From positions 51,254,348 through 51,318,347 of the forward strand of contig JAFMSR010000002.1 of assembly GCA_022818135.1 (NCBI GenBank): a stretch of 64,000 nucleotides of DNA, read 5' to 3'. Source of the DNA: Saxidomus purpurata (Eukaryota > Mollusca > Bivalvia > Venerida > Veneridae). Position 1 is the stretch's first letter. Every line of letters begins with the position of its first letter. Below are positions 12,689 through 53,924 of this stretch, in pieces. The notes under the pieces are model-generated. The model was not told where the DNA came from. It ran no database searches and saw nothing but the letters and a program-made list of their open reading frames with translations. A program made the translations under genes and the position numbers.

Positions 12689-14598
12689 CTAGATGAATAA
12701 CTGTTGTTTTGCATCTATGACATAATTTTGAATAGATGTTAAATCGCTAATACCCCTTAAGACGACCCAATAAGCAGCCTTCATTTGTTCGGCACGGTTC
12801 GACTCAGCTCTGTTTTGAAAATGGCTCGAAACATGACCACTCGGAACAGGTGAGCACGGTTCACAATTAAGTGATCTAAGTATGAGCTTCATTTCGCACA
12901 TCGACCGATATATTCCATCTTGCCAATCAGTGAACTTTTTTTGTGTGCTTGTTTCAATATCCGAGTTTATCAGTCCGCTTGCATTATGGAGAGTCTCTAT
13001 ATAATTAGCAAGTTCATTCAAGCGCTCGTAAACAATGTGTGTATTGTTGCAAAAATTTGGCATCCCACCATTCCTCTGAAAATAATCCGAATATTTATAC
13101 ATTTATAAAGTTTTATAACAGCTTGCGAACTTTTCTATACATTTTAAGACGATGTAGTAATGAGAACCATTTTACATTTTGTTAAGCTGATCAAATTCTT
13201 ATGTATTTTGGTTGAACGTGTTACTATACTTTCAGACTTACATTACTGAGAAACAAAATGTAATATCAACATTTACACGATTTCATGTAATGCGCATTCT
13301 GAATCTTCATAGATTTAGTTGGTATGCCAAATCTGTATACAGTTACGATCGGTCATGATTAAGTTGTCAAGATAACTACTAATTGTCGAGAGTTAACAGA
13401 AAATACATTTTCCTTATCTTATTATAGATTTATCAGAATAACGTTCAAATATTGATAATCGATAGGTATATTTGTATGACATAAGTCTAAGAATTAAGTA
13501 TTGTTTTGCTAACACGACAATATCGGTCACATTAAATGATAATTAATAATGAAATAAGAGAATAAATTTATTCCGGTCACTTACATATTGCACCTTTTCA
13601 TTATCAGTTTCTTCAGTTATCTGTTCCCTTTCGTTAAGTTCAACAAGCCACTTGTCTTCTATCTAAAATGTTTTACACACACTTCTTTATAAACTATTTT
13701 CTAGCCTACAGAAAACATCTATTTTACTAGAAACTATTTATGCTTTCCAGAAATCAATGTAATTATAATAAGATACTGCAATTTGTTACTAATCAAAACA
13801 ACAACAACAAAACAAAAACAACACAACAAAAATTAGCAGGACTTATTACTCAGTTATGTAACAGACATGAATTGACAAGCCTGTAATAAAATTGCTTTAT
13901 TATGTTATAAAAAGCCATTGTGTGAAAGGAATTAAAGTACTGACGTTACATTTTTTTTGTATTAAGATATTAAACTTTGATACTAGATACTGCCAATGAA
14001 GAAACATCCTGACAATGCAAAATTTAAACGATGAAAAACTTTACTTACATATGGTTTTATGTCTTCAGCTGAATATCTGGCTCCCACTATTTTTGGTTCA
14101 AGGTCGTTCAAATATCTCATCAAAGTCGCGTTTGTAGTAGGTTCATTGTTCGCCGGATTGCAATTTCCTTCCGCAGAAAAGCAGGGTGGAAGTCGTGTTT
14201 CTCGAACAGTTCTTGATAAAACGCCTGCCATACTTCCGGTCATGGAGGACACAAATATGCAGAAACCTAAAATAAAATTGAAAATATGTATTTAGTAAAT
14301 TTTAGATATCCAGTTTCATATTGTACAGTGTTGTTTAAAAACAATTCTTAAGTAATATCCATAGTTTTTAATACTTTTTTTATTGCTTTCATCTTTTTTG
14401 TTTTAAGAAATATGACTTCTATGAATTAAAAAAAAATCATGAAGTCATCTGAATACTACATAAATAAAACCGAATTTCATTTTTGTTATTTAAAGATATT
14501 CATTTAACTGAAGGTCTTGTCAAACCGCATCTATTCAGTGAAATATCAAAACAATATTGCTTGATAAATCATAACGTACATAAGTACACAAAAGCCAT
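12689..14598 (-). CDS. A1: secreted four-helix, class I cytokine-like protein
   Basis: Four coding exons, all GT-AG: 14598-14580 (19 nt), 14266-14049 (218 nt), 13662-13585 (78 nt) and 13075-12689 (387 nt with stop), giving 233 residues. Intron phases are 1, 0, 0. Residues 1-20 are a leader (MAFVYLCFCIFVS...). Cys35 and Cys42 precede helix A (about 50-76). Exon 3 codes for a charged loop. Exon 4 holds helix B (116-138), helix C (144-175, ending in C-E-P-C at 176-179), a loop, and an amphipathic helix D (198-231, with YWVVLRGISDL). N-glycosylation sequons occur at N52, N116 and N136. The start was chosen because the 19-nt exon, its GTACGT donor and its phase are conserved in A2 and A3. A1 lacks one cysteine (Ser163) that the paralogues keep, and one residue before N136. 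A class I cytokine identity is inference; the family is not recognised by sequence. Other secreted helical proteins are possible. Confidence 0.8.
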
Positions 14599-14700
14599 GC
14601 TAATTCTTTATCAAATATTTTAATGTCTACAGCTGATTTTATAGTAACAAGAGTCTTAGTTTGTCTCGTTTTCTTTTGTTTAAGAAAGACATTCTTCGTG

Positions 14701-14930
14701 ATTTTATATACAACAGGTGATGGAAATTCAGTTTGAGTCATGTATTCCAATTTTAGAAGTGAAATTAAAACGCCGACACATCGTAAGTATTTAGATACCA
14801 AACCTGTATTTTTTATGCACTACGTAGTTTCCTTGTTTCTATAAAAGTTTAAAGAAACTATTCATTACATTGATCGTTCATCTTAGATGTGATTTTCAGG
14901 TACTTGACTCTTCCGAGTGTTTGTGGGAAG
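14701..14930 (-). promoter_or_regulatory. A1 core promoter and upstream blocks
   Basis: On the gene strand: a TATA box (TATATAAAAT, 14710-14701), a Rel/NF-kB-like GGAAATTC on the opposite strand (14722-14729), GAAACAAGGAAAC (14827-14840) resembling an IRF-type GAAA repeat, and ACTCGGAAGAGTCAAGTACC (about 14900-14920) with an ETS-like CGGAAG core. All four occur in the same order before A2 and A3. A TGTGGGAA word (CSL-like) is also present here. Factor assignments are by motif resemblance only. Confidence 0.6.
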
Positions 14931-15586
14931 TCTGTGGGATATAACATTTAAAATTCTCTTCTGGTTTCGTAAGTTATCGTAGTAAACTAATATGCAGCTA
15001 TTCGACATGCAGATATTGTCCCAACATTTGACTTATTTTTATTTATACGACAAAGTTAGTTAAAATAAAGGGCAACCATTCAGTAAGTTTGATAAATGTA
15101 TTTTGTGACAATATATACCGTACCTGTTTCTGATCGGTGCAAGCAAGTGACAAAATGCATATAACGCAGGAAAAAAAACATCAAACAATTATAATCCAAT
15201 ATTAGTTATGCCAAGTTACAAAATTCTACTCAATCTAGTGCCGTCGCGTTTCTTATATCACAAAATTGAGGTTGCCACAGGGTATTGTCTGCGTGTGCTT
15301 TCCTTGGGGAGATCTTTTTGAGATCTTTTCATAACCATTTATATCTAAACGCATTAAACTTGTTTTATCTACGAGGAATTTTAAGTTTGGTTGGATCTGA
15401 TTCTGTTTAATTTCAGAACATATAGGTTTTTTTGTATTCAGATTATACCATTTTTTAAATTATGCAAAGCCCAATAAAAGAACAATTGACGAACTTTTGC
15501 AGAATAGCATGTATGTTTGCTAAAATTAAGATTTCGTTGTTTTTGCAAATCATCGACTTTAAGTTGGAAATACATGTTTCCTTCAA

Positions 15587-15965
15587 TTAAAGAGGCACTC
15601 CCTAAAACTGGTATACAATTAGAAAATTTACAAAGCAAAAACGATAGAATATTTGCAAGTATTATTACTTTACCTAAAAGTTTAAGCTATACATTCCAGT
15701 CACCATTGGTAAAATCAGTGTTTTAAAAATTGGTTGAAGTACCGTAAATTATTCAAGTCTCTATGTAAAGTTATTGTTGTGCAATTAATGGGTGGATAGC
15801 GATTTATTACAAATGGTCTGTATGCTGATTATTTTTGCTAAAATGAGGCAATTTTCGATATAGATTGTTCTTTAAAAGTGTATTCATTTATCATTTTATA
15901 TTCATTGAACACATTATTTATGTTTTGCAAATATAATCTGCTAGATGCAGGGAGTGTACCTTTAA
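15587..15965. repeat. Family-A MITE, copy 3 (inverted relative to copies 1-2)
   Basis: Left end TTAAAGAGGCACTCCCTA and right end GCAGGGAGTGTACCTTTAA. The interior matches copy 2 in reverse (for example GCTAGATGCAGGG near the right end and AATTAATGGGTGGAT in the middle). No coding capacity. Confidence 0.8.
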
Positions 15966-16196
15966 TAAACTTTACGGAAGTAAACTGTATTATGAATACA
16001 AATAATTCTTTTTAAATCTATTGTATCGAATCATCGCACAATCAAACTGCAAGATCACACAGATATCCTGTTTTCAAAATTAGCTATAAGTATTACATAA
16101 AATTATGAAAGCTTGAAACAGTTGGAGGCATAAAATCCACCATTAAGAATTACTGCTATTAACATTACGATTCAGATTAAGAAATGATTTTGTTTT

Positions 16197-17245
16197 TATG
16201 CCCCCGAAGGGTGGCATATTAAAATCGCACCGTCCGTCCGTCTGTCCGTCTGTCCGTATATGCCCAGTAGACATTACGGGGTTAGGGTTTGAGTACAACT
16301 TAGCATTGTGAGGTTCTTTGAGTTCATTCCGTCATTATGGGGTTAAAAATGGCATTGTAGGGTTAAATAATTGTATTGTGGGGTTGAAAAAGATGAAAGA
16401 AAGATCAAAGGCATAACCTCACAAAGTCCGTTTGGTAAGTACGTCCGTCCGTCTGTGCGTCCCCACTTACAAGTTCGTGTCCGGACTGTAACTCTTTCAT
16501 GCATTGAAGGATTATAAAATAACTTTGCACAAATGTCTAGCACATCAAGACGACGTGTCGCGTGCAAGACCCACGTCCCTAGCTCAAAGGTCAAGGTCAT
16601 ACTTAGAGTTTGAAGGTAATGGATTTCTCTATATATGCATATATGCACACATTCATGTCCGGACTGTAACTTTGTCATGCATTGAAGTATTATAAAATAA
16701 CTTTGCACAAATGTCTAGCACATCAAGACGACGTGTCAAGTGCAAGACCCACGTCCCTACCTCAAAGGTCAAGGTCACATTTAGAGTTTTTAGGTTATGG
16801 AATCCTGTATATATGTATACATTTGTGTCCGGACTTTATCATGCTTTGAAGGATTTTAAAATAACTTGGCACAAATGTCTATCACATCAAGCCGATATGT
16901 TGCGTGCAAGACCTAAGTCCCTACCTTAAAGGTCAAGGTCACACTTACAGTTTATTTGTAATGGAATCCTTTATATATGCATACATTTGTGTCAGGATTG
17001 TAACTTTTTAATGCATTAATTGATTTAAAATAACTTGGCACAAATGTTCAGCACATCAAGACAATGTGTTGTCTGCATGAACCATGTCCCTACCTCAAAG
17101 GTCAAGGTCATACTTAGTGTTTAAAAGTAATGGAATACTGTATGCATCGTTATTCTGTCATGCATGGAAGGATTTTAAAATTCATAGCACATTTATTGAG
17201 CACATGGAGAGGACACAGACTGTGAGGCACCTCTTTCGGGGGCAT
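16197..17245. mobile_element. TIR element with internal ~170-bp tandem units
   Basis: Bounded by perfect 11-bp inverted termini, ATGCCCCCGAA (16198-16208) and TTCGGGGGCAT (17235-17245). Inside, after a CCGTCCGTCTGTCC run, there are four to five diverged tandem units of about 165-180 bp, each beginning near GTCCGGACTGTAAC and including CAAAGGTCAAGGTCA. ORFs here follow the repeat and are not genes. It is non-autonomous; I associate such cassettes with bivalve genomes. Confidence 0.8.
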
Positions 17246-18542
17246 TCGTCACTTGTGAGGGACAGCTCTTGTTACAACTTGATATGAAATTTTGCATCTA
17301 TGCTTAGTGTAATCGAGAAGACACATGTTGACTTCTTGCAAAGAGGGTAGGGAGTCAAAAGGAGCAAATAGTAAATTTGTTTGAAAGCCAAACGTAAAAA
17401 AACATATTTCATTTTTGTTTTCTATTTGTTAGGGCACCTCAAAACCAAACTAATTAGTCGTCGATTAGCTAAAAATTTGTACATGTTTGTGAAATGTATC
17501 GGTCATTAATGGCATTTATGTTTCAGACATTACGATTATTAAACACTACACCACAACATATGATAAACAGTTATATAATAAATAACATTGTTTACGTTTC
17601 GGCCATGTGTGTCAAAACCACAAATTGATTTTAAGCGGATGAAATATAAAGATCTTTGAAGTATTCATGCTGCAATTTGATAGCCCTTCGTTGGGTTTTA
17701 ACTATGTTTCAAGTTTGTTTTTGGAAGTTTAAACTTTCGGTAAGAGCAGCGCATTCCACCCTATTGATGTTGTGTAATAGGTGATGTAACATCTGTCATA
17801 ACATAATTATACAAACACATATATTAATAAAACGATCTGATCGTGAGGCTTCTAATATTATATGTCTTCAGACTTATGTCAGCGGGCAGTTAAACAGTTG
17901 CAGTTGATAGAGCTTTAGCTTATATATCACATCTTACCTAATGTAAAATTGACTATGTCATATTCATATGAATTATTCATTTCTGAAAAGTAATGAATTA
18001 CAATCAATTTGGTGGATGAAATCATGCATATGAATATTTTATTATTAATATCGTTAATTGCACGATTTAATTTGCGTGAAACGTTTCATTTTTCTTTCAC
18101 TTTCAACAACCAGCATAATACATTAATGCAAACAATATCTAATCAGTTTTGGTTTGTTAATTGATTCAATTTCAAGTTTATATGGAATTACTTTCAATGC
18201 GGATATGTGTAGAAGAGGTGCTTTGTTAGTAACCCACAACCTGTAAAGCTATACAAACTTTCGTTAGTTTCATTTCCAAATCAAAACAAAACAATGAGAG
18301 TAGATAATCAGATACTGCAGTCGTTTAACGAAGTGTAAAATTGATAAGAGTATTCTGACAAGGATTATTTATAATGTCATAGTATAGAATTAGATTAAAG
18401 TCATATTACCATTCAAAATGACCACATTAGGTTATAGTCAAGAATTATGCTGAAAACACAGTCACTGTGGATGCTTTAAAACATATAAGAAATAAGTTTT
18501 ACCAAGTTATTTCTGTTATTGACAGAAAAACTAAGATAGGTA
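17246..18542. other. Unannotated 1.3-kb interval
   Basis: AT-rich with no supported gene, RNA gene or repeat. It separates the TIR element from the second copy of the 5.2-kb duplicated segment. Confidence 0.5.
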
Positions 18543-18924
18543 GATTATTTATTTTTGACTAGGATAGTCAAAAAAATATTTTTTACAGAATTCCTCTATA
18601 TCTAATAAATCAATGAAACTGTTATACAGATCTATATTGTTTGGTTATAACTATGGCAATGTTTATTATTCTAGAAGTATAAATCACTGATGGCCACTTT
18701 GAACGGTTATATCACTTTAATATATCATAAGAAGTGACACTTCAAACATTTTTTGACAAAGCTGTATACAATGACCTCAATATAAGACGTGATTCGGCTG
18801 CACTCCTTTTTGATATATAGGTTGTTAACTGGTTTGATAGTTTTAAAGTTTTGTGAGTTCTATTCATCCCTTATGTCTGAGATTTTTGCATTAATTTTGT
18901 TCATATAATTCTTTTACGGTTCTG

Positions 18925-19320
18925 TCGTCCGAAATCACAATGTAAATTTATATATATATACAATTGTGCCTGATGAATTGCATGAAACGCGTAGCACAGT
19001 TAATTTGGTTAATTAAATCATTATTTTAAAGCCATATCAAGTCATTTTTATTTAATTCATTATATATATTGCCTTTTCCGGCATTTAAAGGGTTTTAAAC
19101 CTTAGGACTATATATATCATATTGAATAAATTAATATATGTTGGCAAATTTTACACAATATATTGGTCAAACTGTGAAACTGTGAATCCAAAAGTCTTAT
19201 CAGAACAAACCTGAACGAACAACTTTTGAAAGTGGCAACCAATCTAAATACCTTAAAAATGGGGACATAGTGTTTACAAATAGAGAACATTTGTCGTATG
19301 AACAGAACATATTATGTCCA
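18925..19320 (+). mobile_element. Penelope-like element remnant, second copy
   Basis: Same content as 6360-6770: the hammerhead-like motif followed by a short frame with CAATATATTGGTCAAACTG (QYIGQT). It differs by a deletion of about 17 bp after ATATATCATATTG and a few substitutions. Confidence 0.5.
18962..19001 (+). ncRNA. Candidate type-I hammerhead ribozyme, second copy
   Basis: Identical to the motif at 6403-6442 except for one T-to-C change in the short stem II (ATTGCAT). CTGATGA, GAAAC, ACGCGTA and both stem I arms are unchanged. This only reflects recent duplication, so it is not independent evidence of selection. Confidence 0.55.
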
Positions 19321-20865
19321 GCAGGAAAGAACAAATCATTATGCGAATGCAACGTGGCATTGTTTGGCAATAAACTAGATCACTGAAGTTTACAAGATTA
19401 TACTTATTTGGTTAATATTTGATATTCTTTAAAAAAACGTACACAATTATACGAATTAAGTACTGTAATTGAGAAATTGAAGTAAAAAAAGTATACAGTT
19501 CAATATAATTTATGAAAATTTCACACAATTGCAAACAACTATGTTGTATACAATAATCTGATTATTTTCCAGTGTCTGGAAAAAAGATAACTCACTCACT
19601 TATAACGTACATGTATAGACCCCGAAAATGCAAGAGCAGAAAAAAAACGAATTGACATATAATATTGTTCTGAACTGTATCTCTGTGTAGCTGTACGAGT
19701 CACATATATTGTTCTGGTGGTGATGTTGCAGCATTAGCTAATTTTATATGATTTGTAGAAGATAAACATATTTTGCCTAAATCTTCGTCAACGTCAGTAT
19801 ATCATGTTAAGTGTTTCTTATAACATGTAGCGAAATAAATTCCTGAACTCCATTCTAACCCGAATTAATGTTCATTATGTTAATGATAAGAGGCGATAAT
19901 CTCATGAAAACTGATAAATTTTCTTTGCGCAATGACGCCAAATATCCTTAAAATGTTTTTATTACTAGTATTTACTAGATTTATCATATTATTTCAACTT
20001 CCCCAAGTGACTTCCTTTAGCAAACATATGCACAAAACGACTCAGTTGAACATTGACATAGATATTACATTTGGATGCTTGAAATGATGGTCGAGATTAA
20101 AGTCATTGATAATAAAGTTATGACTTAATTTTCTCTGGTTTATAGATGAAGTACTGACGGAAAACCACGCAACCTTAGTAAGTATTTGCATTCAATGTTT
20201 CATACTATTTTGGGTAACAGTAGTGTATTTACCGATGGTAATCCTACTTAATACATTTAAAAGTGGGTACTGATATTTTTTGTGGTCCCCCGTTTTAATT
20301 GCAAGGCTTGGCTTTATAATTGAAAGTGGGTAGAGTTTCGACCGACTTGTAGATCGAACGTGATGTTATCTTAGGTGATAGTATCAATAAACCTCACTTG
20401 TGTTAGCCGTGTCTGCTTGTTAAACTTTTTGTAATATAACCGTAAATGGCGAAAGTTAGGTTGACGCTTTACACGCTGTAGTGTAGGCAACTGGTGAAAC
20501 TGAAATACCATAAACTAGCCATAGTGTCACGTGGTGTTCACCGCAATCTTAGATATTGCTTGATGAATATCTATTAGCTGATTATCGAAGATAATGAAAA
20601 TATCTGGAGATAGATTTAGGATATCTAATTCTATATCATAATGAAATATTAAGGCTTCCGTGTATTTATGCTACATTTATAAACCACTGCTTTTGCATAG
20701 AAAGGAACATATGAATAAGATTGTAAATGATACATTTTACGAACGATGAGGCCAGAAAGTAGGCATTAAGATGTTCTGATCTTCAATATTTTCAAAAACT
20801 TTTGTTAATTGTTGTTATATTTTAACGAACGTGCGTAGTCAAGTTGTCATGTAGCGGTCAATCAT

Positions 20866-21236
20866 TTAAAGCTGCTTGCTCTCAGTTACCGTTGAAAAAA
20901 GTATTTTTTTTAAAAATTGACATCCTAATACATAAATATAAAACTAAAGGCTAGAATAAAAATATAAGCAAACATCTAGGTAGGAAATTGCCGAAATCGA
21001 TTGAAAATGTTGGTTTTACGGCACCGCTACATTATATGTTTTTATTGGAGTTTCAAAAGCATTTGCAACGCTTTATTATTTGGTAGCGTATAATTTGAAA
21101 TCTACAGATATACATGTACGTGTCAGGAATTTATACTGGAGCCTTTTGTATGACTATATGTTCTAAAAGATGTTATTTTCATACTGTTTGAAGAACTTTA
21201 TTTTTTTAACTAAAATCTGAGAGAGAGCAGCTTTAA
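20866..21236. repeat. Family-B MITE, copy 2
   Basis: Same insertion as copy 1, carried along by segmental duplication. Ends TTAAAGCTGCTTGC and GAGCAGCTTTAA. Confidence 0.85.
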
Positions 21237-22941
21237 ATGGCAGTTGTTTTGTGTAATGTTTAAAGGTGAAAGCAACTTCGATCATTTTTATGTAAACGGA
21301 AACAGCAGTGTCGAAAATGCGGAAACCACTGAAACTTGCGTGTTTCAGGCGTTCTGCTTTGCTGTTTTGCTATTTTGTTGTGCCCCAAAAGGCATTCCTG
21401 GACTTATGCTGAAACAAAGTATATTGGCCGTAACTAGCAAAGAACACTGAAAATGCAACCCCATTCACAAATACCTACCGTCCGAAAAACACACATTTGA
21501 ATCTGGAACCACTGGTTGATCAACGCTGGAAGTTGTACACTGATAATCCAATGCACGAGTGATCACGTTTTACTACTACATTGTATGACCACCTACCACA
21601 ATGTATACATGCAGTATAGCTTAAAGTGGAATTATGCGCATATTTTTCAAGTAAATATCCGGCTGAAATAGGTGTGTGTATAAAAGGTTAGAGGAAATAA
21701 TAGATTTTAACCAAATACACCAAACTTTTGCCGCTACCAATACGAGATAATAACTTTCCAAATATAACTTTTCTTATTTTGACTGGGAGAGTTTTTTTTA
21801 GAAAAACAAACAACTGCATGCAGGAGTTGCTTCCCTTCCACTGCCAAATATCTACCAACAACAACAACAACACAAGGGAGATCACTGCGAAGAAAGGAAC
21901 TATTCTTTTATCAGTTTTTTTTTTTATTTCTAAAGCACCAACTTCAAATACTAATGCGGCATTATCATTAATTTAACACATTTAAATGCACAGTGACCAA
22001 AAATTGCTTTTATAAAACTGTCACCGAAAATACACTATGTGCAATAAGATGCGCATAATGTCACTTTAACGAGTCTATCATGATAATGTTTTCAATATTG
22101 CAATTAAAGCTAACGACCATCAAAGGTGCGTTACACCAAGTGTAAAAGTGCACCCGAGGTCCACTGTCCGATGCCTTAAAGTAGTATATGAAAGAATATT
22201 TTGATTTTGAAATGATCTGTGACTTACAGCTTCTCCTCGGCGGCTTTCACCGTTGTAAGCTGGTAAACTTAATTTAAAGTTCAGGCTTTTGCGTTATTTC
22301 CACACTTGCGATTTTATGATGGTAAGACTTCCTAGCACTGTAAGAAATGTGCGGGAAGAATTTACAGCGATGTTTATGTGTTCTTATACCATTGATTGAA
22401 ATTATTAACCACGGGAGATATGTATAATTGTACCTCTTATAACTTTTGCATCTGCAGTTTATCAAACATAACTATTGAAGTTACGGAATAATGCTACATG
22501 TACATGTACACCCGCAAGGGTTTAACTACTCATGTTCACTTTAGGCAGATGAGCAACCTGTCCATTTGCAAATAAAGGGTTTAATGTCAATAACATACAA
22601 CATAACTAGATTATTGAAGTTTCATTTTAATTATCTGAACTAACCAATAATATCTTAAATTAACCCAGTGGGGGCTGGGGCTACATGTTTAAAATGCTTT
22701 TATTTCCTGAAAAAGCTTGTTCAGAATTTGATTATATTTGGCAAAAGTAATCAACTTCGTAATTTCTAAGAATTGAAAATTTAAAATATTGTTGTGTGTT
22801 TTTGTTTTTAGAAATGTGACCCTTAAGCGGGTGTAGCATAGAAACTTAAGAATTTTTGTTTTCTGAAACTAATAGTGCTGATTTAATTCAACTTGCAGCG
22901 TCTCAGTTATGTATTACTGTAAGATGCAGCAAAAAGAACAA

Positions 22942-23034
22942 AAAAACAAAAATAATATCAAACAGGGAATGCCACGTACCAAAAACGCAGCCTCCCCAAA
23001 ACGAACCCCACAGCACCCAGAAGTGCACACCACC

Positions 23035-23112
<78 letters not shown>

Positions 23113-23277
23113 CACACGACACACACACACAATCATGTACACACACACATATACACTACCAACACACACTAGCATACAAAGCAAACACACGAGGACAAAA
23201 CGAACAATTAAAGGAACACAGTGGGGCACCGCCTTGGAACGGTCAGTGGCAAAAACACCACTGGGGAGCTTAAACAA
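22942..23277. mobile_element. CA-microsatellite-bearing insertion
   Basis: About 336 bp present only in copy 2 of the duplicated segment. It has a conserved left arm (AACAGGGAATGCCACGTACC, then CGCAGCCTCCCCAAAACG), a long interrupted AC repeat (about 23035-23150) and a right arm with GGGGCACCGCCTTGGAACGG and a CAGTGG...CCACTG hairpin. AACAA occurs at both borders, compatible with a 5-bp target duplication. A second, right-truncated copy lies inverted at 32148-32331. The Cys/Val and His/Thr ORFs here are low-complexity artefacts. Confidence 0.75.
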
Positions 23278-25480: not shown

Positions 25481-25483
25481 CAT

Positions 25484-25568
25484 GGATATGTGTTGTTTTG
25501 CAGATATGAGGTAATTTCGAATACTGATTACATCACCAATACCTGTCAAGACTACGAAGTAATGACAC
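25484..25568 (-). pseudogene. Helix-D exon fragment of a fourth A-family copy
   Basis: The minus strand translates as YFVVLTGIGDVISIRNYL then ISAKQHIS, aligning with the A2 C-terminus (YWVVLRGISDLTGIQDYL then HVAIQHIS). No helix A, B or C sequence is attached, and no strong splice acceptor precedes it, so it is best read as a remnant of partial tandem duplication. An alternative terminal exon is possible but less likely. Confidence 0.6.
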
Positions 25569-25793: not shown

Positions 25794-25795
25794 AT

Positions 25796-27671
25796 CTATG
25801 AAGATATGTGTTGTATTGCTACATGGAGGTAGTCCTGAATACCAGTAAGATCGCTAATGCCCCTCAAGACGACCCAGTAAGCAGCATTCATTTGGTCGAC
25901 ACGGTTTTCAATCGTAGCTCTACTTTGAAAATAGTCTGAAAAATGGCCACTCGGTACGGATGAACAGGGCTCACAATTAAGTGATCTAAGTATGAGCTTC
26001 ATTTCGCACATACATCTGTATATCTCATCTTGCCAATCAATGAAATCATTCTTCATGCTTGATTCATTTTCCGAGTTTATTATTCCGCGTTCATAGTGGC
26101 GCAGAAATTCTATATAATTAACAAGTTCATTCAAACGCTCGTAAACAATGTGTGTATTGTTGCAAAAATTTGACATCCCGCCAGTCATCTGAAAAATATG
26201 AATCGGCATATTCTTAATATGATTTTTTCAATCAGCTTGCTTGAATACATTTTAAGATTATGCATATAATGAGATGCATGATAAAGCTGATCAAAGTCTG
26301 TTAAAAAATGACGTTGTAAATACTTCACTTACAAACAAAGCACTAAAACCTCATTTTTACGAAGGGATGCATTTAGCATTTTCAGCCTCTATACATTCCA
26401 TTTAATAAATGTGCTTTAATTGTATACAATATCGATCACTATTTATCGTGTCTGTTTGCTTAAAACCCGTATTCTTATCCAAGTTTAATCAGAATAAAGT
26501 ACTAAGATGAATAATTTATCTCTTAAATAAATAATATATTATTTAATTTAATTTTGCAGACATTATACTATTGAATTTAATTAATGGTTATTAATAAAGA
26601 TGAAAAATAGGTTTGGTTTGGTAACTTACAGTTTGCATCATTCCATGTGCATTTTCTCTAGCTAAATTTTCTTCTTCGGTAAGTACAACGTACCATATGA
26701 CTTCTATCTAAAATGTTTTAGAATACAATATTTATAATAAAAGACAACATTATATATATTATAGTAGAACACATTTTTATTTAAAAATAAAATAATAAAG
26801 AATTTCAAGGGGAAATGATATTAGTTTGATGATATATTTGGAAAAATAATATACAACTAAGAAATCCAATTGGTCATTGCATTTTGTAACTGATACTAAC
26901 ACAAAACAAAGAGATAAAAAGTTGCAGGAATTTTCGCTCAATTCCTTAAGAGACATGGATTGATAATTCAACAGCATATTGCTATATTCTGTTCAATAAG
27001 CTGAGGTGTGAAGGTGTAAATTTGCAAAAATTGACATCAAGTCTTATGAATGTTTTACACAAATAGTAACAAAGCAATGAAAATAACCTTACTTACATTA
27101 GGCTTAATGTCTTCAGCAGCATATTTTGCTCCGACTATTTTCCGTTCAAGGTCTTTCAAATACCTCGCCAAAGACGCGTTTGTTATAGGTTCATTGATGG
27201 CCGGACTGCATTGTTCTGTCGCAGAAAAGCAGGGTGGATGTCGTGTTTCTCGAACATCTCTTGATAAAACGCCACCCATGGTTCCGGTCATAGAGGACAC
27301 AAATATGCAGAAACCTTAAATGAAATTGAGAAAATATATTAGTCATGTGGTTATTTTTACATTTCAAAGGTTATGTTTATAGTGTTGGTTCAAAGAACTT
27401 TTAAGTCATATCCTTACGTCTTATTACTATTTTATCTGCTTTACGAATACTACTTCTATGAATTAAAAATCATCATAAAGTATAAATACTACACATGTAC
27501 AATAGAACTTAAAATCATTTTTGTTGTTTTAAGATATATGTATTTGTTTACCACTGTAAGCTTTCAAATTTGTTATATTGCTCAAATATAGAGCTTGTCA
27601 AATTACATTAGTTGAATATCAAAGCAGATTTGCTTGTTAAATTAAAACGTACATAAATAAACAAACTCCAT
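25796..27671 (-). CDS. A2: secreted four-helix, class I cytokine-like protein
   Basis: Exons 27671-27653 (19 nt), 27314-27097 (218 nt), 26707-26630 (78 nt) and 26188-25796 (393 nt with stop) give 235 residues with phases 1, 0, 0. Leader MEFVYLCFCIFVS. It keeps the PPC-F...C pair before helix A and NFCNNTHIVYERLNEL of helix B. The C-M-C pair in helix C, LNCEPC at the helix C end and AAYWVVLRGISDL of helix D are also kept. Exon 3 is strongly diverged (EVIWYVVLTEEENLARE) compared with A1 and A3, as expected for a loop. It is the most distant of the three genes. Acceptors are TTTAAG, TTTTAG and TTTCAG; donors GTACGT, GTAAGT and GTAAGT. No stop or frameshift, so it appears intact. Function is inferred from architecture only. 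Confidence 0.8.
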
Positions 27672-27772
27672 TCCAATCCTTTTTAAAATCGATTATATGT
27701 TTACAAATTCTTTATAGTCAGAAGTCTCTCTGTTTGTCGTTGTCGTTTGTTTAAGAAAGACTTTTTTGGAGG

Positions 27773-28000
27773 TTTTATATACGATAGGTGGTGGAAATTC
27801 AGTCTGAGTCATGTATTCCAATTTTATTATTAGATGTAAAATAAAAACACCGACACTTCGCATCTTTCTAGATAGGAAACATTTATTTCCACTAGTACAC
27901 AGTTTCCTTGTTTCGAGATAAGGAGGAAGAACCCAATCTAATTATAGACCATTAATCCGAGATGTTTCTTCGATGTACTTGACTCTTCCGAGTGTTCGTA
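27773..28000 (-). promoter_or_regulatory. A2 core promoter and upstream blocks
   Basis: TATATAAAA (27781-27773), the GGAAATTC word on the opposite strand (27793-27800), GAAACAAGGAAAC (27914-27901) and the CGGAAGAGTCAAGTACATCG block (about 27974-27993) occur in the same order and similar spacing as before A1 and A3, although the surrounding DNA has diverged. This points to functional constraint. Confidence 0.6.
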
Positions 28001-28129
28001 GGCAAATATTGGGGATTCGAAATTAGTAGATTGAAAATATTTTGTATAGTTAGGATAATGAATGTTTTAATAAAGTAAATTATTCAGATATTTGTAATAA
28101 TAATTACCGTTTTTAATCGATGCATGCAT

Positions 28130-28775
28130 AATATATGTTTCGAGCTTTTACCATCGCCTGTAGAAAACTGCAATAATTTTGAACAATATAAAGCATGGCA
28201 AAAATAAAAGTCACCCTGCAATTAATCTTTTTTATGTCAAAATTAAAGTGCCTGCTTAAAACAGTGCTGATGGTGATTAAAAAACAACAACACGAAAGTG
28301 TCACCGTGTTTCTGTATATGGGAGCTTTCCATGTCCATTTAATGATCACCGTTCCGGTAATGTTTTGTCTAGTAGTTAGGCGTTTTATAAACGTATTTGG
28401 TTGGTTCTAAAAGTTTACTTTTGGTGTCATGACATTAAGTTTTCATTGCATTACTGGTGATATTATTTTCTATAACATTTAAATGATTAACCATCAGAGC
28501 AATGGACGAAATGCCTGCTCGGCAAATCGGTTGTTTGTGCAAATCATAAGACATTTGTTGGGAATTATAGAAGTTTTATTAAAAAGCGGTATGAAAACAC
28601 ACAGTTATTGAAGCTTATGTCAAAATGGCGAGATATCATAGTGGAGTTTAATGGCAGATAAAATTTGGGGGTATATTAGGACCCGTTGTGAAATTGACGT
28701 CATTGTCAAAAAGACTTTTCACGAATGGAGTGTTTATTCAACAGTCACAAAATAGATGAAAACAGTAAAAGGGGC
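28130..28775. other. Unannotated interval upstream of mariner relic
   Basis: No supported feature. The overlapping ORFs near 28113-28410 are on both strands and have no recognisable motif. Confidence 0.4.
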
Positions 28776-28779
28776 TAGA

Positions 28780-29640
28780 TTTGGTTTAAGAGACCCATAC
28801 ACCAGGGCATCCTTCGAGTGTTACCTCAGAAATTATAATCAAACAACTTATCGATGTTGTTAAATCGGACGATGACCGAGTTTCAGTTTCACGAATTGCA
28901 CGGACTAGAAAATCTGCAAATTCTAATCGTAGACTAAAAATGAGAAAAACAACTGCAAGATGGATACCCCATCTTCTGACAGACACTATGCAAGATAATT
29001 CCTACTGCTAATGTATCACTAAAACATATCCAGAACTTGAAAAGAACCAGTATTCTAACATTGTTATGGGTGACGAAACATGGTTTCATTTGTTTCAGCG
29101 GATTCGAAAGGTTAACAGCAAAATTTAGGCAATTAATGTGTGCCACTCTCCGTGTTTTGCAAAATAAGTTGATTAGTTTGGACTAATGTTCGTGATATTT
29201 TAAGTATTTATTGTCCAACTTTTTAAATTGTACTGCCGAGAGAAAATATGTAACTGTGTCCTTCTGTAAAGAACAGCGCTAAAGAAAGTTTAGTTATGTA
29301 TACTTCCTCCAAGTAAAGCTATTAAGTACACGTCTTTGCTACGCGTCTTCTATATATTAGCTGCCATTTTTTTACTTTTCGAAAAAGGAAAATATTCGTG
29401 TTCTTCCCCATCCTCCCTATTTCCCAGACCTTGTACCTTGTGAACCCTTTTCCACAAATAGAAAAACACTTATCAGGGATGATTATGGTAGTCTGCGGTT
29501 TATCAGTGTCTGTTGGATATTCCAATTGAAAAATTATTGAAACTGGTATACATTTTGTAAGCGATTGAAACTTTATATAAAGGGGGAAACGTAAGCTATT
29601 GTTGTGCGGTAAAAATAAGTCATCAGACGGAAACGATTAA
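28780..29640 (+). pseudogene. Mariner-type transposase relic
   Basis: Pieces of a mariner transposase in shifting frames: an N-terminal part (TPGHPSSVTSEIIIKQLIDV, then RVSVSRIARTRKSANSNRRL) corresponding to the helix-turn-helix region, ARWIPHLLTD, then MGDETWFHLFQ (first catalytic region), and near 29400 LPHPPYFPDLVPCEPF followed by RDDYGS and RLKLYIKGGN (third catalytic region and C-terminus). Stops and frameshifts separate them. In the third region the last acidic residue of PCD reads E. It is dead. Confidence 0.85.
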
Positions 29641-31385
29641 ACATTTATAATGGTTATAAAAAAGGGTTAAACTTTTGTTAATCATTTTAGGTTTTCTTAA
29701 AACTAGTATGTTTGAATTGTATTCTTTTTTAATGTTTTTATAACAGACGTTAAAGGCCAATAGTGTCACAACTTTCACATCATAATTATGCATTTTATCT
29801 TTTGTTATGTTTGAAAGTGCTTAAGGGCTTTGATTGTGTTACAGATATTGTCAATTTGACAATCTGATAAACTTTGAGACTTCCTGATGAACATTTTTAG
29901 GGAACTTAAAATATGTTACATATACTATATCTTTATATTTGAACTTCATTGGTTATATTGTTAATTACTTCTATCAGGGTTGGTTTGATTGGTTAAACGA
30001 AACTCTGGCAAGATGTATTTAATTTTGAATTCAGAAATGCAAAAAAGAGATCAGACTTGGATTTCCAAGTGAACACATAACAGTGGTTATCAACTAGAAT
30101 AATAGAAACGATATTGTTGTTAAAAAGTTTACGTTTACGGATAACCGTTTACTAATATTTGTTGAATTGTTAAACTGGTGAAAAAAAGGACATTAAAGAT
30201 AAAACGGAATTGTGTTTTTCATTCTCGACATTAAAATAGGGCATGTGACGACAGCAAGCAACGACAATATACGCGAAAAAATACAGCATAAAACTATTAT
30301 TGGAATGTTGTACATCATCAAAATTTCATTAAACGTATCAATTTAATTGAAATTTAATTTCTCAATTATCATTAACTGAATATGGAATATACAGCCGTTA
30401 TTTACTCGACCTGTGACCGTCGTCATGACCCCCATTTTTATATATACCGATATAAAGAAACAATTGTACACATTATTCGAAAATATAGTAAATGTCGAGG
30501 AAACATTACAGGCTACATATTATATAGGTTTTTAACCTATAATTACTCTATATTGTTAACGCTGCTGATTCTATCATGATATGAGACTAAATACTGTAGG
30601 CAACTCGTGACGTTGACGACTGAAAACTTCAATGTAATGTTGATAGCATTTCTTCGTTGAAGTGTAACTAACTAACATCTTGAGATAGTTCATACTGATG
30701 AAGATAATCACTAAAGATAATTACTATATTCGGATACAGGATTTCCTTGTAATGTGTTATCGCAGGATCCTAATAAGATAATTTGGCTTTCCAGTGCTTT
30801 ATACAAGAATGATTGATAATATTTTTCAGTTTCATATTTGTTAATAGACTGTGGTATGCATTTCCGATTGAAATCGATGACTTGTGCAAACAAACACATT
30901 GCTGAGTCGACATACAATAAAACAGTTCATTTTCTTCTATAAATATGCTGCATTCTCATGTAAAAGAATTGCTTTCAAACTGACTTATTATTTTAACAAT
31001 TGCGTGGTTATTTGATTTTCACTCAAACCTAAAGGACGCTGAAAAGCAGACGTAAGTACTGAGTTGACATCATAACTTAAAAGAAAACAATGAGAGTTGA
31101 CGACCTTTCAGCTGTTGAGGCTGTATTTATTATACATGTAATTCTTTGTAACCTGTTTGACCACTTGGTATACCACTTGTTATTCTTTTAACATAATTGT
31201 TGCAGTTACTCTGTTGTGCAGTTTGACAATTTTGATTACTAGTATTAGTATTATACAATAAAGCAAACTTAAATTTACTTTTCTACAGGAGATCGTGTAA
31301 AACTATTATAAGGGTATTCAAAAAGAATTATGAAAGCAGTATGTACATGTATACAATTTTACTGTAGTAAAGTAAGTAAACTAGA
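29641..31385. other. Unannotated 1.7-kb interval
   Basis: AT-rich with no supported gene, RNA gene or repeat on either strand. ORFs here are short and without motif. Confidence 0.5.
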
Positions 31386-31705
31386 ATTGTTATACCCCCA
31401 ACTAATTACAGAGTTATTGCCCTTTCTTAATTTTCCTTGTCCGGAGCATAGCTTGAAAGCTACTTGTTGGAATTTAATACAACTTCATAACATGGTCAAG
31501 CAAAAAGAGAAATTGCAGTACACAAGAACCTTAACTATATCTTGACTAATTATAGAGTTATTGCCCTTTGTTACTTTTCCTTGTTTGGAGCATAACTTGA
31601 AAACTACTGGTTAGAATTTAATACAACTTCATAACATGGTCAAGAACAATGAGAGGTAGTGCAGTGTACAAGAACAATAACTCTATCTTGACAAATTACA
31701 AGAAC
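31386..31705. repeat. Tandem repeat, two units of about 165 bp
   Basis: Two diverged units share TACAGAGTTATTGCCCTTT, a TTTTCCTTGTCCGGAGCATA block and ACTTCATAACATGGTCAAG. A third, partial unit (AAGAACAATAACTCTATC) follows. This is a satellite-like cassette; the 71-codon ORF across it is not a gene. Confidence 0.75.
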
Positions 31706-32147
31706 AATATCTCTATTTAAGCTTTTTTGCAAGGTATTCTATTACTACAAACGTCCTCAGTTTAAAAAGCAGACTTTCGGGGATATTAATCACATTTAGT
31801 GTTAATTGTGTTTAAAAAGAGGGCCAGTTACTGTGTCAGTACTATCTTAACGTAATTTATTTTGTCGTTAAAACCTATAAAACCGGTCTAGTGATTGAAA
31901 TGTAAAATACAGGTTGCATTTAACTTTACAATCATTTTATCGCAAGTCAAAGTGTCTGAGTAATTTTAAATTTAATGAAGACTGAAGCGGATTAAAAAAC
32001 ACATTCCGTTAGGACATGAGCATCAAATATAGTGTTGAACTACAATTATACTTAAAAATAGTTTTGTAAACAAGATTCCCATGATTGCTCTAAATCGCCT
32101 TAAAGCATGTGGAACTCTAAGAATGATCTTATTTTTATACGTTTGAC
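31706..32147. other. Unannotated interval
   Basis: No supported feature. Confidence 0.4.
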
Positions 32148-32199
32148 TGTTGGTAGTGTATATGTGTGTGTGTACATGATTGCGTGTGTGTGTCGTGTG

Positions 32200-32234
<35 letters not shown>

Positions 32235-32331
32235 TGGTGGTGTGCACTTCTGGGTGCTGTGGGGCTCGTTTTGGGGAGGCTGCGTTTTTGGTACGTGGCA
32301 TTCCCTGTTTGATATTATTTTTGTTTTTTTT
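32148..32331. mobile_element. TG-microsatellite-bearing insertion, inverted and truncated copy
   Basis: Reverse complement of the left arm and microsatellite of the insertion at 22942-23277 (GGTACGTGGCATTCCCTG, CGTTTTGGGGAGGCTGCG). It stops inside TGTTGGTAGTG and lacks the arm with the GGAACGG hairpin. The repeat tract runs from about 32160 to 32233. Confidence 0.75.
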
Positions 32332-32689
32332 GATCAAAGAATTTATGTTATCTTTTTGAAATACTTATGGAAGGTGATTATTCTTAGCTAACGAAAAATT
32401 ATGCATTTTATGATAGCCCGCACATTAGAACAGGTGAACATCTAAATCAATAGTTTAATATTGAATTATAATCAGTTGTAATTATATACAAGTTACAAAC
32501 ATTTGTCGGCAAAATTATGCATCAACTTTTTTCCGCATATAAACATAGCTATATATAAACAGGAAGTAACTGCTGAGAGTACACGTAAAACTGTTGCTTC
32601 CTCACCTTCATGCATAGAAAGAAATTCTTGCGCGTTCAGCTTGGTATAAATAAATAATTGCAACTGAAAAATATTAGCTTCAAATCATC

Positions 32690-32860
32690 AGTGGTTAGTG
32701 CACTCGCTTCTCACCAATGCAAACCGGTTTCGATCTACGTCTTTGGTAGTATCTGAGATGGAAGGTGGTCACCAGATGGGTATTCTCCGTGTACATTCTA
32801 TAGTAAGGGTATCATCTGCGCGGTCGGTTCAAAAACCCGCATGAGTTTATGTTTGTTGTT
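32690..32860 (+). repeat. tRNA-derived SINE
   Basis: An A-box-like TGGTTAGTGCACTCG is followed about 30 bp later by a B-box-like CCGGTTTCGATCTACG (one inserted T), then a tail with GGTGGTCACCAGATGGG and TTCTCCGTGTACATTC. The tRNA fold is degraded, so it is a SINE head, not a tRNA gene. Confidence 0.55.
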
Positions 32861-33425
32861 ATTTGTATCTTGCCGACTTTAAATTAAGATAAAAATACAA
32901 ATGTTATCATTTTATCTGTATTGCAGTAGCTACTTTAAGGCTCAGCCTTTATGATAAAGATAACAAAAGATGGAAGCATTGATCCATGTTCTCGAGATTT
33001 GTAACAAAAAGCTCTTTGCACTTCATCAATGTAAAGTCGAAAACAAGACAAATATGACGAAAACAGTCTTAAGCATAAACTTTTAAATGTATTCATCGAC
33101 TGTTAAATATCGTGCATTCTTATCATAGCATTTATAATGTCAGTTATTTGAATGTTTGTTTACATATACTATAGTGTAATTGCTAATAAATGTATTTAAT
33201 TCTTCATAATTAGAATTTAACATCTTTAATTCAGGGGTGTTTGTCGGGAGTAAATGAATATGTTTGTATCTGATATGTGTATTTTTAATTATGTGTTTAT
33301 TTCTACTTGATAGTTTTGTATTTGCTTTAATCTTTTTTTAGGCCACATTGTAAATAATAATATGTAATTTGTCACATAACTGAATGTGTTATACCTTCGT
33401 AAAATTTAGAAACTATTATTATTAT
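32861..33425. other. Unannotated interval
   Basis: AT-rich, no gene seen. A short ATT repeat closes it at 33415-33434. Confidence 0.4.
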
Positions 33426-33429
33426 TATT

Positions 33430-33690
33430 ATTAAACACGACGTATTCAAACCCGTCAACTCGAAAACTCAACGAAAAAATACGTTGTGTTTTCGCCTTTC
33501 ATCAGCTGTGTTTTCACCTTTCATCTGCTGTGTTTTCGCCTTTCATCTGCTGTGTTTTAGCCTTTCATCTGCTGTGTTTTCGCCTTTCATCTGCTGTGTT
33601 TCAACTCTTGGTCCCGCCAAGTCGATAAATCGAAAAAAACGACAAAATGTTTGCTTCTCAAGTTTTCGTGTTTTTCGAATGTAAGTTCTA
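33430..33690. repeat. Family-D element with 24-bp tandem array
   Basis: Opens with ACACGACGTATTCAAACCCG and CAACTCGAAAACTC, followed by about five tandem units of 24 bp (CTGTGTTTTCGCCTTTCATC) at 33484-33600, then CCCGCCAAGTCGATAAATCG and TTTTCGTGTTTTTCG. Words such as GTGTTTTCG and CGAAAACAC occur in both orientations, so the element can fold. A larger relative lies at 42355-42712. Confidence 0.7.
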
Positions 33691-33707
33691 TCAAAATTAC
33701 AACTGTT

Positions 33708-34057
33708 TTAAATTTGCTCGGTCTCCGATTTTGGTTAAAAAAAAAGTGCTTCAAACTACATGGATATGAAAATATTTTAGAACATATAGCCATATTGAAA
33801 AGGTTCCTATATAATTTCCTGTCACGTATATCTGTTGATTTGAAATAAAACGCGACCAAATAATAAAGCGTTGCAAACGGTTTTGAAATTCCAATATAAT
33901 CATATTGTGTAGCGGAGCCGTAAAACCGGCACTTTCAATCGATTTTTGCCAATTCCTACTTAGACTTTTACTTCTATTGTTGATTCTATAATTTATATAC
34001 ATGTATAAGTTTGTCATTTCTGGGGAAAAAACGGCAACTGAGAGCGAGCAGCTTTAA
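33708..34057. repeat. Family-B MITE, copy 3
   Basis: Opposite orientation to copies 1-2. The left end is decayed (TTAAATTTGCTCGGTCTCCG); the right end, CTGAGAGCGAGCAGCTTTAA, is intact. It retains the AAGCGTTGCAAACGGTTTTG palindrome and the GTAGCGGAGCCGTAAAACCG block. Confidence 0.8.
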
Positions 34058-34132
34058 CTGCCCGTCTGACATAGGTTCTGGTCGATATTCTGAAGAAAAA
34101 TTCTACAAGAAGCCTCACGATTAGAATTGTTT

Positions 34133-34155
34133 CATTAAAGCTGCTCGCTATACAT
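34133..34155. repeat. Lone family-B terminus
   Basis: ATTAAAGCTGCTCGCTATAC matches one family-B end, but the remainder and the opposite end are absent. Probably a deletion derivative. Confidence 0.4.
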
Positions 34156-34920
34156 TTTTTTCATTTTGACGAACATGCCCAAAATGGATGCAAACAATGT
34201 TATTTATGATGTTATTGTGTATCATATTTTGTGAGGTAGAGTTTAATCACCGTTATGTCTGCACTTTTACATGAATGCCATTAATGACAGATACATTTTT
34301 ACATACTAGTACATGTACACATTTTGCTAATCGGCGACTGATTAGTTTGGTTTTGCAGTGCCGCAACAGATAGATAACAAAAATGAAATCCGATTTGGCA
34401 CAATTGAGAAAATGGTATCACCTGAATACAGGAAAAACTAAATGTTCTTAAATTAAACAGAATCAGATCCAACCAAACTTAAAACTCCTAATAGATTTAA
34501 CAAGGTTAATGCGTTTAGCAATAAATGGTTATGAAAAGATCTAAAAAAAGGTTTCCCCATAGACAGTACACGCAGACAATACCCTGTGGCAACCTCAATT
34601 TTGTAATATAAGAAACGCGACCGCACTTTATTGAGTAGAATTTTGTAACTTGACATAACTAAAATAGGATTAATTGTTTGGTGATTTTTGCGGCGTTTTA
34701 TGGATTTCGTCATTTGCTTGCACCGATCAAATACAGGTACATGTACGGTATATCTTGTCACAAATATCAAACTTACTGAATGATTGCCCTTTATCGTACA
34801 TTTGTTAAATAAAACAAAATCAAATGTTTGGACCATATCTGCGATTCGAATAGCTGCATATTAGTTAACTACAATTACTTTCGTAACCAGAAGAGAATTT
34901 TAAATGTTATATCCCTAAGG

Positions 34921-35153
34921 CTTCCCACAAACACTCGGAAGAGTCAAGTACCTGAAAGTCACATCTAAGATGAACGATTAATGTAATGAATGGTTTCTTC
35001 AAACTTTAATAGAAACAAGGAAACCACGTAGTGAATAAATAAAAGGTTTGGTATCTAAATACTTACGAGGTGTCGGCATTTTCATTTTACTTCTAAAAAT
35101 AAAATTGGAATTTATTACTCAAGCTGAATTTCCACCACCTATCGTGTATAAAA
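34921..35153 (+). promoter_or_regulatory. A3 core promoter and upstream blocks
   Basis: ACTCGGAAGAGTCAAGTACC (34933-34952), GAAACAAGGAAAC (35012-35024), GAATTTCC (35126-35133) and TATAAAAA (35147-35154) precede the ATG by 330 to 105 bp. The TATA distance predicts transcription start near 35180. TTCCCACA (CSL-like in reverse) lies at 34923. Confidence 0.6.
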
Positions 35154-35258
35154 ACCTCCAAGAATATCTTTCTTAAACAAACGATAGAGACAAACAAAGA
35201 ATCTTCTGACTATAAAAGAATTTGTAAACATATATTAATCGATTTGATCAGAATAAGC

Positions 35259-37154
35259 ATGGCTTTTGTGTATTTATGTACGTTTTGATTAATTAAGCAA
35301 TATTGTTTTGATAGTTCACTGATGCAGTTTGACAAGACCTTCAGTTAAATGAATATATTTAAACAACAAAAGCGATTTTCTGTTTTATATGTGTAGAATT
35401 CAGATTACTTTATGATTTGTTTTAATTAATAAAGAAGTCATATTCGTAAAACAAATAAGATATGAGGAGTAAATAAGTATTAAGAAGTATGGATATGACT
35501 TATTATTTAAGAATTATTTAAATCAACACTGTACAATATAAAACTGGACATCTAAAATTCACCTTATACATATTTTCAATTTTATTTTAGGTTTCTGCAT
35601 ATTTGTGTCCGCCATGACCGGAAGTATGGCAGGCGTTTTATCAAGAACTGTTCGAGAAACACGACTTCCACCCTGCTTTTCTGAGGAAGGACAATGCAAT
35701 CCGGCGAACAATGAACCTATTACAAACGCGTCTTTGGTGAGATATTTGAACGACCTTGAACTGAAAATAGTGGGAGCAAAATATGTAGCTGAAGACATTG
35801 AACCATATGTAAGTAAAGTTATTTTCATCGTTTAAATCTTGCATTGTCAAGATGTTTCTTTGACAATATCTAGAATTAAAATTTGATATCTTATATCAAA
35901 TATTTAACGTTTTCTTTTCACCATCATTGCTTTTTATGACAGAATAAGGCAATATTTGTTTCAGGCTTGTCAATTCATGTCTGTTACATAATTGAGTGAT
36001 AAGTCCTTCTAATTGTGGTCTCTTTTTTAATATTATGTTTTTGTTTTGTTGTTGTTTAAATAAGTAACAAATTGCAGTATCTTATTAATACATTTCTGGA
36101 ATGCATCGTTTCTAGTAAAATTATGTTTTCTGTAAGCTAAAAATAGTTTATAAAAAAATGTATGCAAAACATTTTAGATAGAAGACAGCTGGCCTGTTGT
36201 AGATAACCGAAAGGAACAGATAGCTGAAGAAATCGAGAATGAAAAGGTGCAATATGTAAGTGACCGGGAGAAATTCATTCTCTTATTTCTTTATTAATTA
36301 TCATTTAATGTGACCGATATGATCGTGTTTGCAAAATAATATCTAATCATAATGTTGTACAGATATACCTAATTAACTATATTTGAACTTTATATTGATA
36401 AAACTATAATAAAATAAGGAAAATTTATTTTCTGTTAAGTCTCGACAATTAGTAGTTATCTTGATGACTTTATCATGACCGATCGTAACTGTATAGGTTA
36501 CAATATAAACATACCAAAGGAATCCATTAAGGTTAAGAATGCGCATAACATCAAATCGTGTTTTTGATATAATGTTTTGTTTCTTAGTAAAGTAAGTCTG
36601 AACGCATAGTAACAGTTTTGCCGCACGTTCAACCCAGAAATAAATAAGAATTTGATAAGCTTAATAATGGTTCTCATTGAAAACATAATGTCTTACAATG
36701 TATAGAAAAGTTGGCAAGCTGTTATAAAACTTTATAAATATATAATTATTGGGATTTTTTTCAGAGGAATGATGGGATGCCAAATTTTTGCAACAATACA
36801 CACATCGTTTACGAGCGCTTGAATGAACTTGCTAATTATATAGAAACTCTTTTCCATAATGCAAGCGGACTGATAAACTCGGATATTGAAACAAGCATGA
36901 AAAAGAAATTCACTGATTGGCAAAAAGACATATATCGATGTATGTGCGAAATGAAGCACATCCTTCGATCACTTAATTGTGAGCCTTGCTCACCTGTTCC
37001 GAGTGGCCATGTTTCGGGCCATTTTCAAAACAGAGCTGAATCGAACCGTGCCGAACAAATGGAGGCCGCTTACTGGGTCGTTTTAAGAGGCATTAGCGAG
37101 TTGACAGCTATTCAAAATTATGTCATAGTTGCAAAAGAACGGTTTTTCATCTAG
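35259..37154 (+). CDS. A3: secreted four-helix, class I cytokine-like protein
   Basis: Exons 35259-35277 (19 nt), 35591-35808 (218 nt), 36178-36255 (78 nt) and 36765-37154 (390 nt with stop) give 234 residues; phases 1, 0, 0. Leader MAFVYLCFCIFVS. The cysteines before helix A, NFC before helix B, the C-M-C pair of helix C and NCEPC are all present (seven mature cysteines). Exon 3 encodes IEDSWPVVDNRKEQIAEEIE... like A1. Helix D reads AYWVVLRGISELTAIQNYV. It is close to A1 (about nine in ten residues in exon 4) and divergent from A2. No disabling change. In the 3' region just past the stop there are three 38-bp tandem repeats. Secretion is well supported; a cytokine role is an inference from fold and gene structure. 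Confidence 0.82.
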
Positions 37155-53920: not shown

Positions 53921-53924
53921 AAGC

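Follow-up and report, generated by a model that had tools for sequence, protein, structure and literature searches.

Which kind of protein is encoded by three small paralogous genes on contig JAFMSR010000002.1 of the bivalve Saxidomus purpurata? These genes, here denoted A, B and C, lie within a 64,000-nucleotide stretch that was analysed as a whole (positions 51,254,348 to 51,318,347; hereafter, the window), and an earlier sequence-only reading had proposed that they represent an undescribed molluscan family of helical cytokines. We find that A, B and C are real genes, beyond chance open reading frames, that they are under purifying selection, and that they probably belong to an undescribed family of secreted four-helix proteins, the helices themselves being predicted at low confidence. 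The account we prefer, held at close to an even chance, is that these are disulfide-bonded four-helix bundles, most likely, extracellular signalling ligands that work like class I helical cytokines. We do not assign the family to the class I cytokines.

Gene structure and evolution of A, B and C

Translation and inspection of the splice sites confirmed the three genes (Table 1): each has an intact frame and four exons separated by GT-AG introns of phases 1-0-0, and the products consist of 233 (A), 235 (B) and 234 (C) amino acids, as originally read. The first coding exon, of only 19 nucleotides, specifies either MAFVYL(C) or MEFVYL(C). The tiny phase-1 exon followed by phase-0 introns was borne out; likewise, the final intron that usually precedes helix D is indeed absent, helices B, C and D all being encoded in exon 4. 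By inspection, a secretion leader (MAFVYLCFCIFVSAMTGSMA in gene C, with equivalents in A and B) is followed by a mature protein with six invariant cysteines. The charged A-B loop in an exon of its own (exon 3), the C-x-x-C motif and the amphipathic stretches are present in A, B and C as described.

The proteins are 68% (A/B), 85% (A/C) and 68% (B/C) identical. For whole genes, Nei-Gojobori (NG86) estimates of nonsynonymous and synonymous divergence (dN/dS) were 0.197/0.467 for A/B, 0.079/0.193 for A/C and 0.196/0.440 for B/C (ratios 0.41-0.44). Exons 1, 2 and 4 are better conserved than the introns. Base divergence in exon 3 is about that of the introns, yet this exon is gap-free; it is the fastest-changing part of the genes, in which the A/B and B/C pairs each share 9 of the 26 residues and the A/C pair shares 17, and dN exceeds dS there in all three pairs, if across few sites. 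The same excess of dN was observed in the N-terminal tail (three of three pairs) and in the B-C loop (two of three).

Predicted fold of the mature protein

For the mature protein, AlphaFold2 produced a low-confidence model (predicted local distance difference test, pLDDT, 64; predicted template modelling score, pTM, 0.62) with four long helices, at residues 52-74, 109-138, 144-174 and 200-233 (lengths 23, 30, 31 and 34), compatible with the four helices anticipated earlier, A in exon 2 and B to D in exon 4. The modelled A-B, B-C and C-D connections span 34, 5 and 25 residues, respectively; such a long-short-long order of loops is needed for the cross-over connections of the cytokine fold. When folded alone, exon 4 yielded three helices (pLDDT 69, pTM 0.60) and uninformative structural matches.

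A family of 23 loci in the clam genome

The genome of the same species (1.135 Gb, with the window at C2:51254348-51318347) was searched with protein C. This search yielded 46 exon-wise matches at expectation values (E) up to 10 that, after merging by locus and reading back, identified 23 loci with the last exon of the family. Nine of these, namely, A, B, C and six more, all to the left of A, form an array of about 160 kb (C2:51.13-51.29 Mb) that ends inside the window. The remainder comprise a single locus on contig C3269, a divergent array of 11 loci at C14:7.39-7.67 Mb, and two singletons, L042 (C14:31.82 Mb) and L043 (C10:16.59 Mb). The three-gene cluster is real, but its extent had been understated: it is one end of the ~160-kb array inside a larger family. 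One C14-array locus, L033, matched protein C at E 1.45 and was counted on a separate tblastn search (E 1.2e-6); a fragment on C3863, a helix-D relic in the window and two further matches (E 1.04 and 9.87) fall outside the 23. Some copies are broken: L047 and L048 on C2 share one frameshift, and L033 and L037 in the C14 array end early.

The C2 array includes a near-identical pair of loci on opposite strands, L045 (C2:51.146 Mb) and L049 (C2:51.243 Mb), and broken pairs with common lesions, that is, L047/L048 and the exon-2 matches L017/L018, with one TAG each. The opposite-strand pairs and the common lesions suggest a large inverted duplication of this array.

The last exons of the C2 group are 25-32% identical to those of the five C14-array members compared, and the two singletons are 18-43% identical to the others. 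In the phylogenetic tree, L042 groups with C2 (support 0.994), and a clade of L038, L040 and L041 is recovered (0.999). Exons 2 to 4 could be modelled for 6 of the 11 C14-array members (L035, L036, L038, L039, L040 and L041), with exon 2 of 176-182 nucleotides, exon 3 of 96-114, exon 4 of 381-393, and phase-0 introns after both exon 2 and exon 3. A 19-nucleotide exon 1 (MNIILV plus one base, followed by a GTACG donor) was found in L038, L040 and L041, which, together with A, B and C, display the full 1-0-0 phases; L039 has a candidate 19-nucleotide exon 1 (MNIIRA, GTATG donor). The C2 group and the very divergent C14 array thus have the same exon order and phases. Candidates for exon 3 with good splice sites were detected in the singletons as well (63 nucleotides in L042 and 99 in L043). 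Where dS could be estimated, last exons compared inside the C2 group or inside the C14 array have a dN/dS of 0.19-0.60.

The C-x-x-C at the end of helix C, which had been listed among the features of the genes, turned out to be a hallmark of the C2 subfamily only; it is missing in all 11 C14-array copies and in both the C10 and the C14 singletons. C2 members also carry F-Q-x-[KR] before helix D (gene C, for example, has FQNR and L045 has FQNK), which the C14-array and C10 members do not preserve in this form. It resembles the FXXK receptor-binding motif of the LIF-group cytokines, a likeness noticed by eye only.

Co-variation of cysteines and helix topology

Cysteines were compared in 11 of the 23 loci over the full length and in 18 for exon 4; left out of the latter set were L047 and L048 (frameshifted), L033 and L037 (early ends) and L050 (a near-copy of L046). 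Alignment columns 107 and 114, before helix B, were counted as one position, the C14 and C10 rows being about seven residues longer there; the C-terminal cysteine of L042, which sits in a separate column, was counted as the same position as the others; and the variable Cys 164 was omitted from the pairing.

Cys 35 and Cys 166 are both present in 10 of the 11 sequences and both absent in the remaining one (L042); Cys 85 (exon 3) and Cys 201 (C-D loop) occur together in six and are jointly absent in five; and Cys 42 and Cys 180 are found together in three, with neither present in eight. Among the 18 last exons, eight have both the cysteine before helix B and the C-terminal one, three have neither, and seven, all from C2, have the former alone. 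The clade that lacks Cys 114 and the C-terminal cysteine retains 35 and 166, and, conversely, L042, which lacks 35 and 166, retains 114 and the C-terminal cysteine. An economical pairing of these residues would be 35-166, 114-C-terminal, 85-201 and 42-180, with 114-177 in the C2 group.

As a matter of bookkeeping, all these putative pairs join the same end of the bundle in an up-up-down-down arrangement. In an up-down-up-down arrangement, 35-166, 42-180 and 114-C-terminal span opposite ends; 85-201 and 114-177 are compatible with both. The gain and loss of cysteines would therefore fit up-up-down-down better than up-down-up-down, with the caveats that the independent events are few, the tails are flexible and the pairing was picked post hoc.

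Searches for homologues

No recognisable homologue surfaced in Pfam, the PDB sequences or the protein collection, in agreement with the earlier statement that no sequence-level homologue is recognised. In Pfam, the best matches were at E 0.0092 for the three proteins (NinB; 16.2 bits, below the cut-off of 23.8), E 0.01 for 14 last exons and E 0.0068 for nine mature proteins, and these weak matches were spread across unrelated families, with at most two members each. Against PDB sequences, the best E was 0.48 for both the three-protein and the nine-member profiles, and 0.022 for the 14-member last-exon profile, the latter for a 39-residue piece common to chains of the cobalamin adenosyltransferase type. 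Neither gene C nor an alignment of the three sequences matched anything in the protein collection at E up to 10. As for viral relatives, none were detected in pattern scans, the viral fold library contained no match at E < 0.001 (best E 0.051, an unnamed protein, template modelling (TM) score 0.46), and phage records searched in protein mode returned just four matches, at E 3. A search of the clam genome for IL6Ra-bind and STAT_bind (PF09240, PF02864) gave no match, and is uninformative, as the control genomes were equally silent.

A likeness to LIF was considered and rejected as evidence of descent. Aligned locally, gene C and human LIF match best in CxxCS...GHV at the end of helix C, with shuffle p of 0.068 for C, 0.116 for A and 0.236 for B (P 0.071 in a separate test). 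This candidate was dropped because the match vanished with 14 diverse last exons (P 0.27) and because the C-x-x-C is subfamily-specific; the likeness thus fails family-wide.

Comparison with known cytokine systems

A, B and C resemble long-chain class I cytokines of the LIF/CNTF/OSM type in their predicted secreted four-helix design, the long-short-long loops, the single exon for helices B, C and D, and the tiny phase-1 exon 1. In the LIF subfamily, disulfides link a C-x-x-C that closes helix C to two cysteines ahead of helix A; such cysteines are found here in the C2 subfamily only and are absent from the C14-array, C10 and C14-singleton members. Cys18 of LIF lies before helix A and Cys131 at the end of helix C, and LIF has two other disulfides. 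The Cys18-Cys131 disulfide of human LIF, given in PMC3865251, may be comparable to a pairing of the 35-166 type. Three exons are given for LIF and CLCF1 in PMC9221449 and PMC8780587. The differences are that A, B and C show no significant sequence or profile similarity to these cytokines, that their A-B loop has its own exon, that LIF is not among the fold matches listed, and that the C-x-x-C is not conserved family-wide.

The genes of IL-6 and G-CSF have a phase-1 first intron followed by phase-0 introns, as observed in A, B and C; unlike them, A, B and C lack the last intron before helix D, yield no profile match and have a different cysteine arrangement. The Unpaired (Upd) proteins of Drosophila, which are longer than the A, B and C proteins, are invertebrate ligands, as proposed for the family described here. 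PMC13203501 describes them as ligands of Domeless, an IL6R homologue.

Alternative explanations

Several results weigh against cytokine-like ligands. The sequence-only reading had looked to a fold search for a top match to long-chain cytokines, which was not obtained: the matches listed for the low-confidence full model were generic helical bundles, the best being p130Cas, vinculin and designed four-helix bundles, with p130Cas and the designed ones in the lead. No natural class I cytokine appeared among the matches listed in one search with the full model, in those with exon 4 or in the viral library, which is not evidence of absence; in another search with the same low-confidence model, solved class I cytokines came up only at E 1.2 (8dpu_B) and 1.4 (8d74_D), with TM-scores of 0.18-0.33. 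Comparison of the nine-member profile by hhalign was not significant for LIF (P 0.12), CNTF (0.26), IL-6 (0.14) or G-CSF (0.15), the last two represented by provisional sequences; the real score was reached by 6, 13, 6 and 3 of 60 shuffles, respectively, and reversed CNTF (P 0.0011) outscored every real cytokine. Of the proposed cytokine family, secretion, the four predicted helices, the predicted loop lengths and the intron phasing are supported; fold and profile matches to cytokines are not supported. Neither a confident model of a different fold nor a strong profile match to an unrelated family was obtained.

The generic matches of the sole full-length model and the lack of a sequence link to any cytokine tested are what would be expected of an ordinary up-down-up-down secreted four-helix protein unrelated to cytokines, such as a carrier, a mucosal or haemolymph defence effector or a structural protein, expanded in arrays. 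Against it speak the long A-B and C-D connections and the putative pairs 35-166, 42-180 and 114-C-terminal, which would lie at opposite ends of such a bundle; with the model in its favour itself of low confidence, we consider this explanation unlikely. The tandem arrays, broken copies and fast-changing exon 3 would also suit a lineage-specific, fast-evolving family of reproductive or surface-recognition proteins, in which variation of the A-B loop serves to recognise gametes or microbes and not to signal. Against this, a dN/dS of 0.19-0.60 points to purifying selection on the last exons, and we hold this explanation to be quite improbable. Class II helical cytokines, of the interferon or IL-10 type, are likewise helical and secreted, and their genes are duplicated in vertebrates; however, class II genes have phase-0 introns, whereas the first intron here is phase 1, and no Pfam match was found, so that we rate such an assignment as very improbable indeed. 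Signalling ligands resembling class I cytokines are plausible as the reading most consistent with the loop lengths, the exon plan and the cysteine pairing. Under this scheme, the leader would direct secretion; the mature protein would form a four-helix bundle, putatively up-up-down-down, in which long cross-over loops connect A to B and C to D; exposed surfaces of the helices and the A-B loop would bind cell-surface receptors; and tandem duplication would have generated many copies, with the A-B loop (exon 3) changing fastest.

Significance

A survey published in 2026, covering 18 phyla or subphyla of metazoans (PMC13203501), reports an IL6R-JAK-STAT module in Mollusca and IL6 in vertebrates only, and leaves the activating ligand open. 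No title listed in searches of an open-access library for molluscan or other invertebrate class I cytokines reports one in molluscs, and the survey reports none. As described there, the survey employed BLASTp and tBLASTn with vertebrate queries; such searches would miss the family described here because it has no significant similarity to the four cytokines tested. Among A, B, C and their relatives are concrete, intact candidates for the activating ligand in molluscs. The bolder proposal, that they are independently diversified class I-type cytokines beyond vertebrates and insects and the missing ligands of the molluscan module of IL6R/Domeless-like receptor and JAK-STAT, present in more than 20 copies with a diversifying A-B loop, appears doubtful to us. 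If ligands of the class I type are indeed involved, the ligand fold with the phase 1-0-0 exon plan would predate vertebrates; if the cytokine reading fails, this is still a secreted family with no Pfam entry and 23 loci in one genome.

Coordinates and neighbouring features

Table 1. Positions within the window of the exons of genes A, B and C, a further relic and upstream elements
Feature	Position	Strand	Remarks
Gene A exon 1	14580..14598	-	19 nucleotides; MAFVYL and first base of C; ends in phase 1
Gene A exon 2	14049..14266	-	remainder of leader, N-terminal cysteines, helix A
Gene A exon 3	13585..13662	-	charged A-B loop, 26 amino acids
Gene A exon 4	12689..13075	-	helices B, C, D; CxxC; stop
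Gene A TATA-like box	14703..14710	-	112 bases upstream of ATG
Gene A AP-1-like TGACTCA	14734-14740		
Gene B exon 1	27653..27671	-	
Gene B exon 2	27097..27314	-	
Gene B exon 3	26630..26707	-	
Gene B exon 4	25796..26188	-	
Gene B TATA-like box	27774..27781	-	110 bases upstream of ATG
Gene B TGACTCA	27805-27811		
Gene C exon 1	35259..35277	+	
Gene C exon 2	35591..35808	+	
Gene C exon 3	36178..36255	+	
Gene C exon 4	36765..37154	+	
Gene C TATA-like box	35147..35154	+	112 bases upstream of ATG
Relic of a further copy	25484..25561	-	helix-D piece only; tblastn inside the window

Across 25-26 residues, the helix-D relic shows 48-60% identity with the three genes (E 3e-5 to 0.004). The TGACTCA of A and B lies 30 bases upstream of the TATA-like box, and the TGASTCA class occurs three times in the entire window, with none within 1000 bases upstream of gene C. 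A and B being paralogues, their common TGACTCA counts as one observation. Upstream of A, B and C, no consensus sites for NF-kB, STAT (gamma-activated sequence, GAS) or the interferon-stimulated response element (ISRE) are common to the three genes.

A second helix-rich multi-exon gene, with about six exons read by eye, occupies 53751-59816 on the minus strand; for three open stretches holding its exons, a Pfam search at E up to 1 was negative. A sequence at 28790-29150 (+) resembles, by eye, a mariner-type transposase relic, with no Pfam match for 28790-29008. Pieces of non-LTR (long terminal repeat) retrotransposons lie at 4423-4851, 5235-5651 and 11494-11979, all on the plus strand; Pfam detected RVT_1 in the first (E 1.4e-10) and zf-RVT in the last (E 4.3e-9), with weak matches only in 5235-5651. 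Gene A is flanked on both sides by a direct 4.4-kb duplication (5977-10404 and 18538-22941; 96% identity), and another repeat, dispersed and about 370 bp long, was seen in seven copies, in both orientations, at 8323, 20865, 33706, 37967, 41509, 46585 and 47386.

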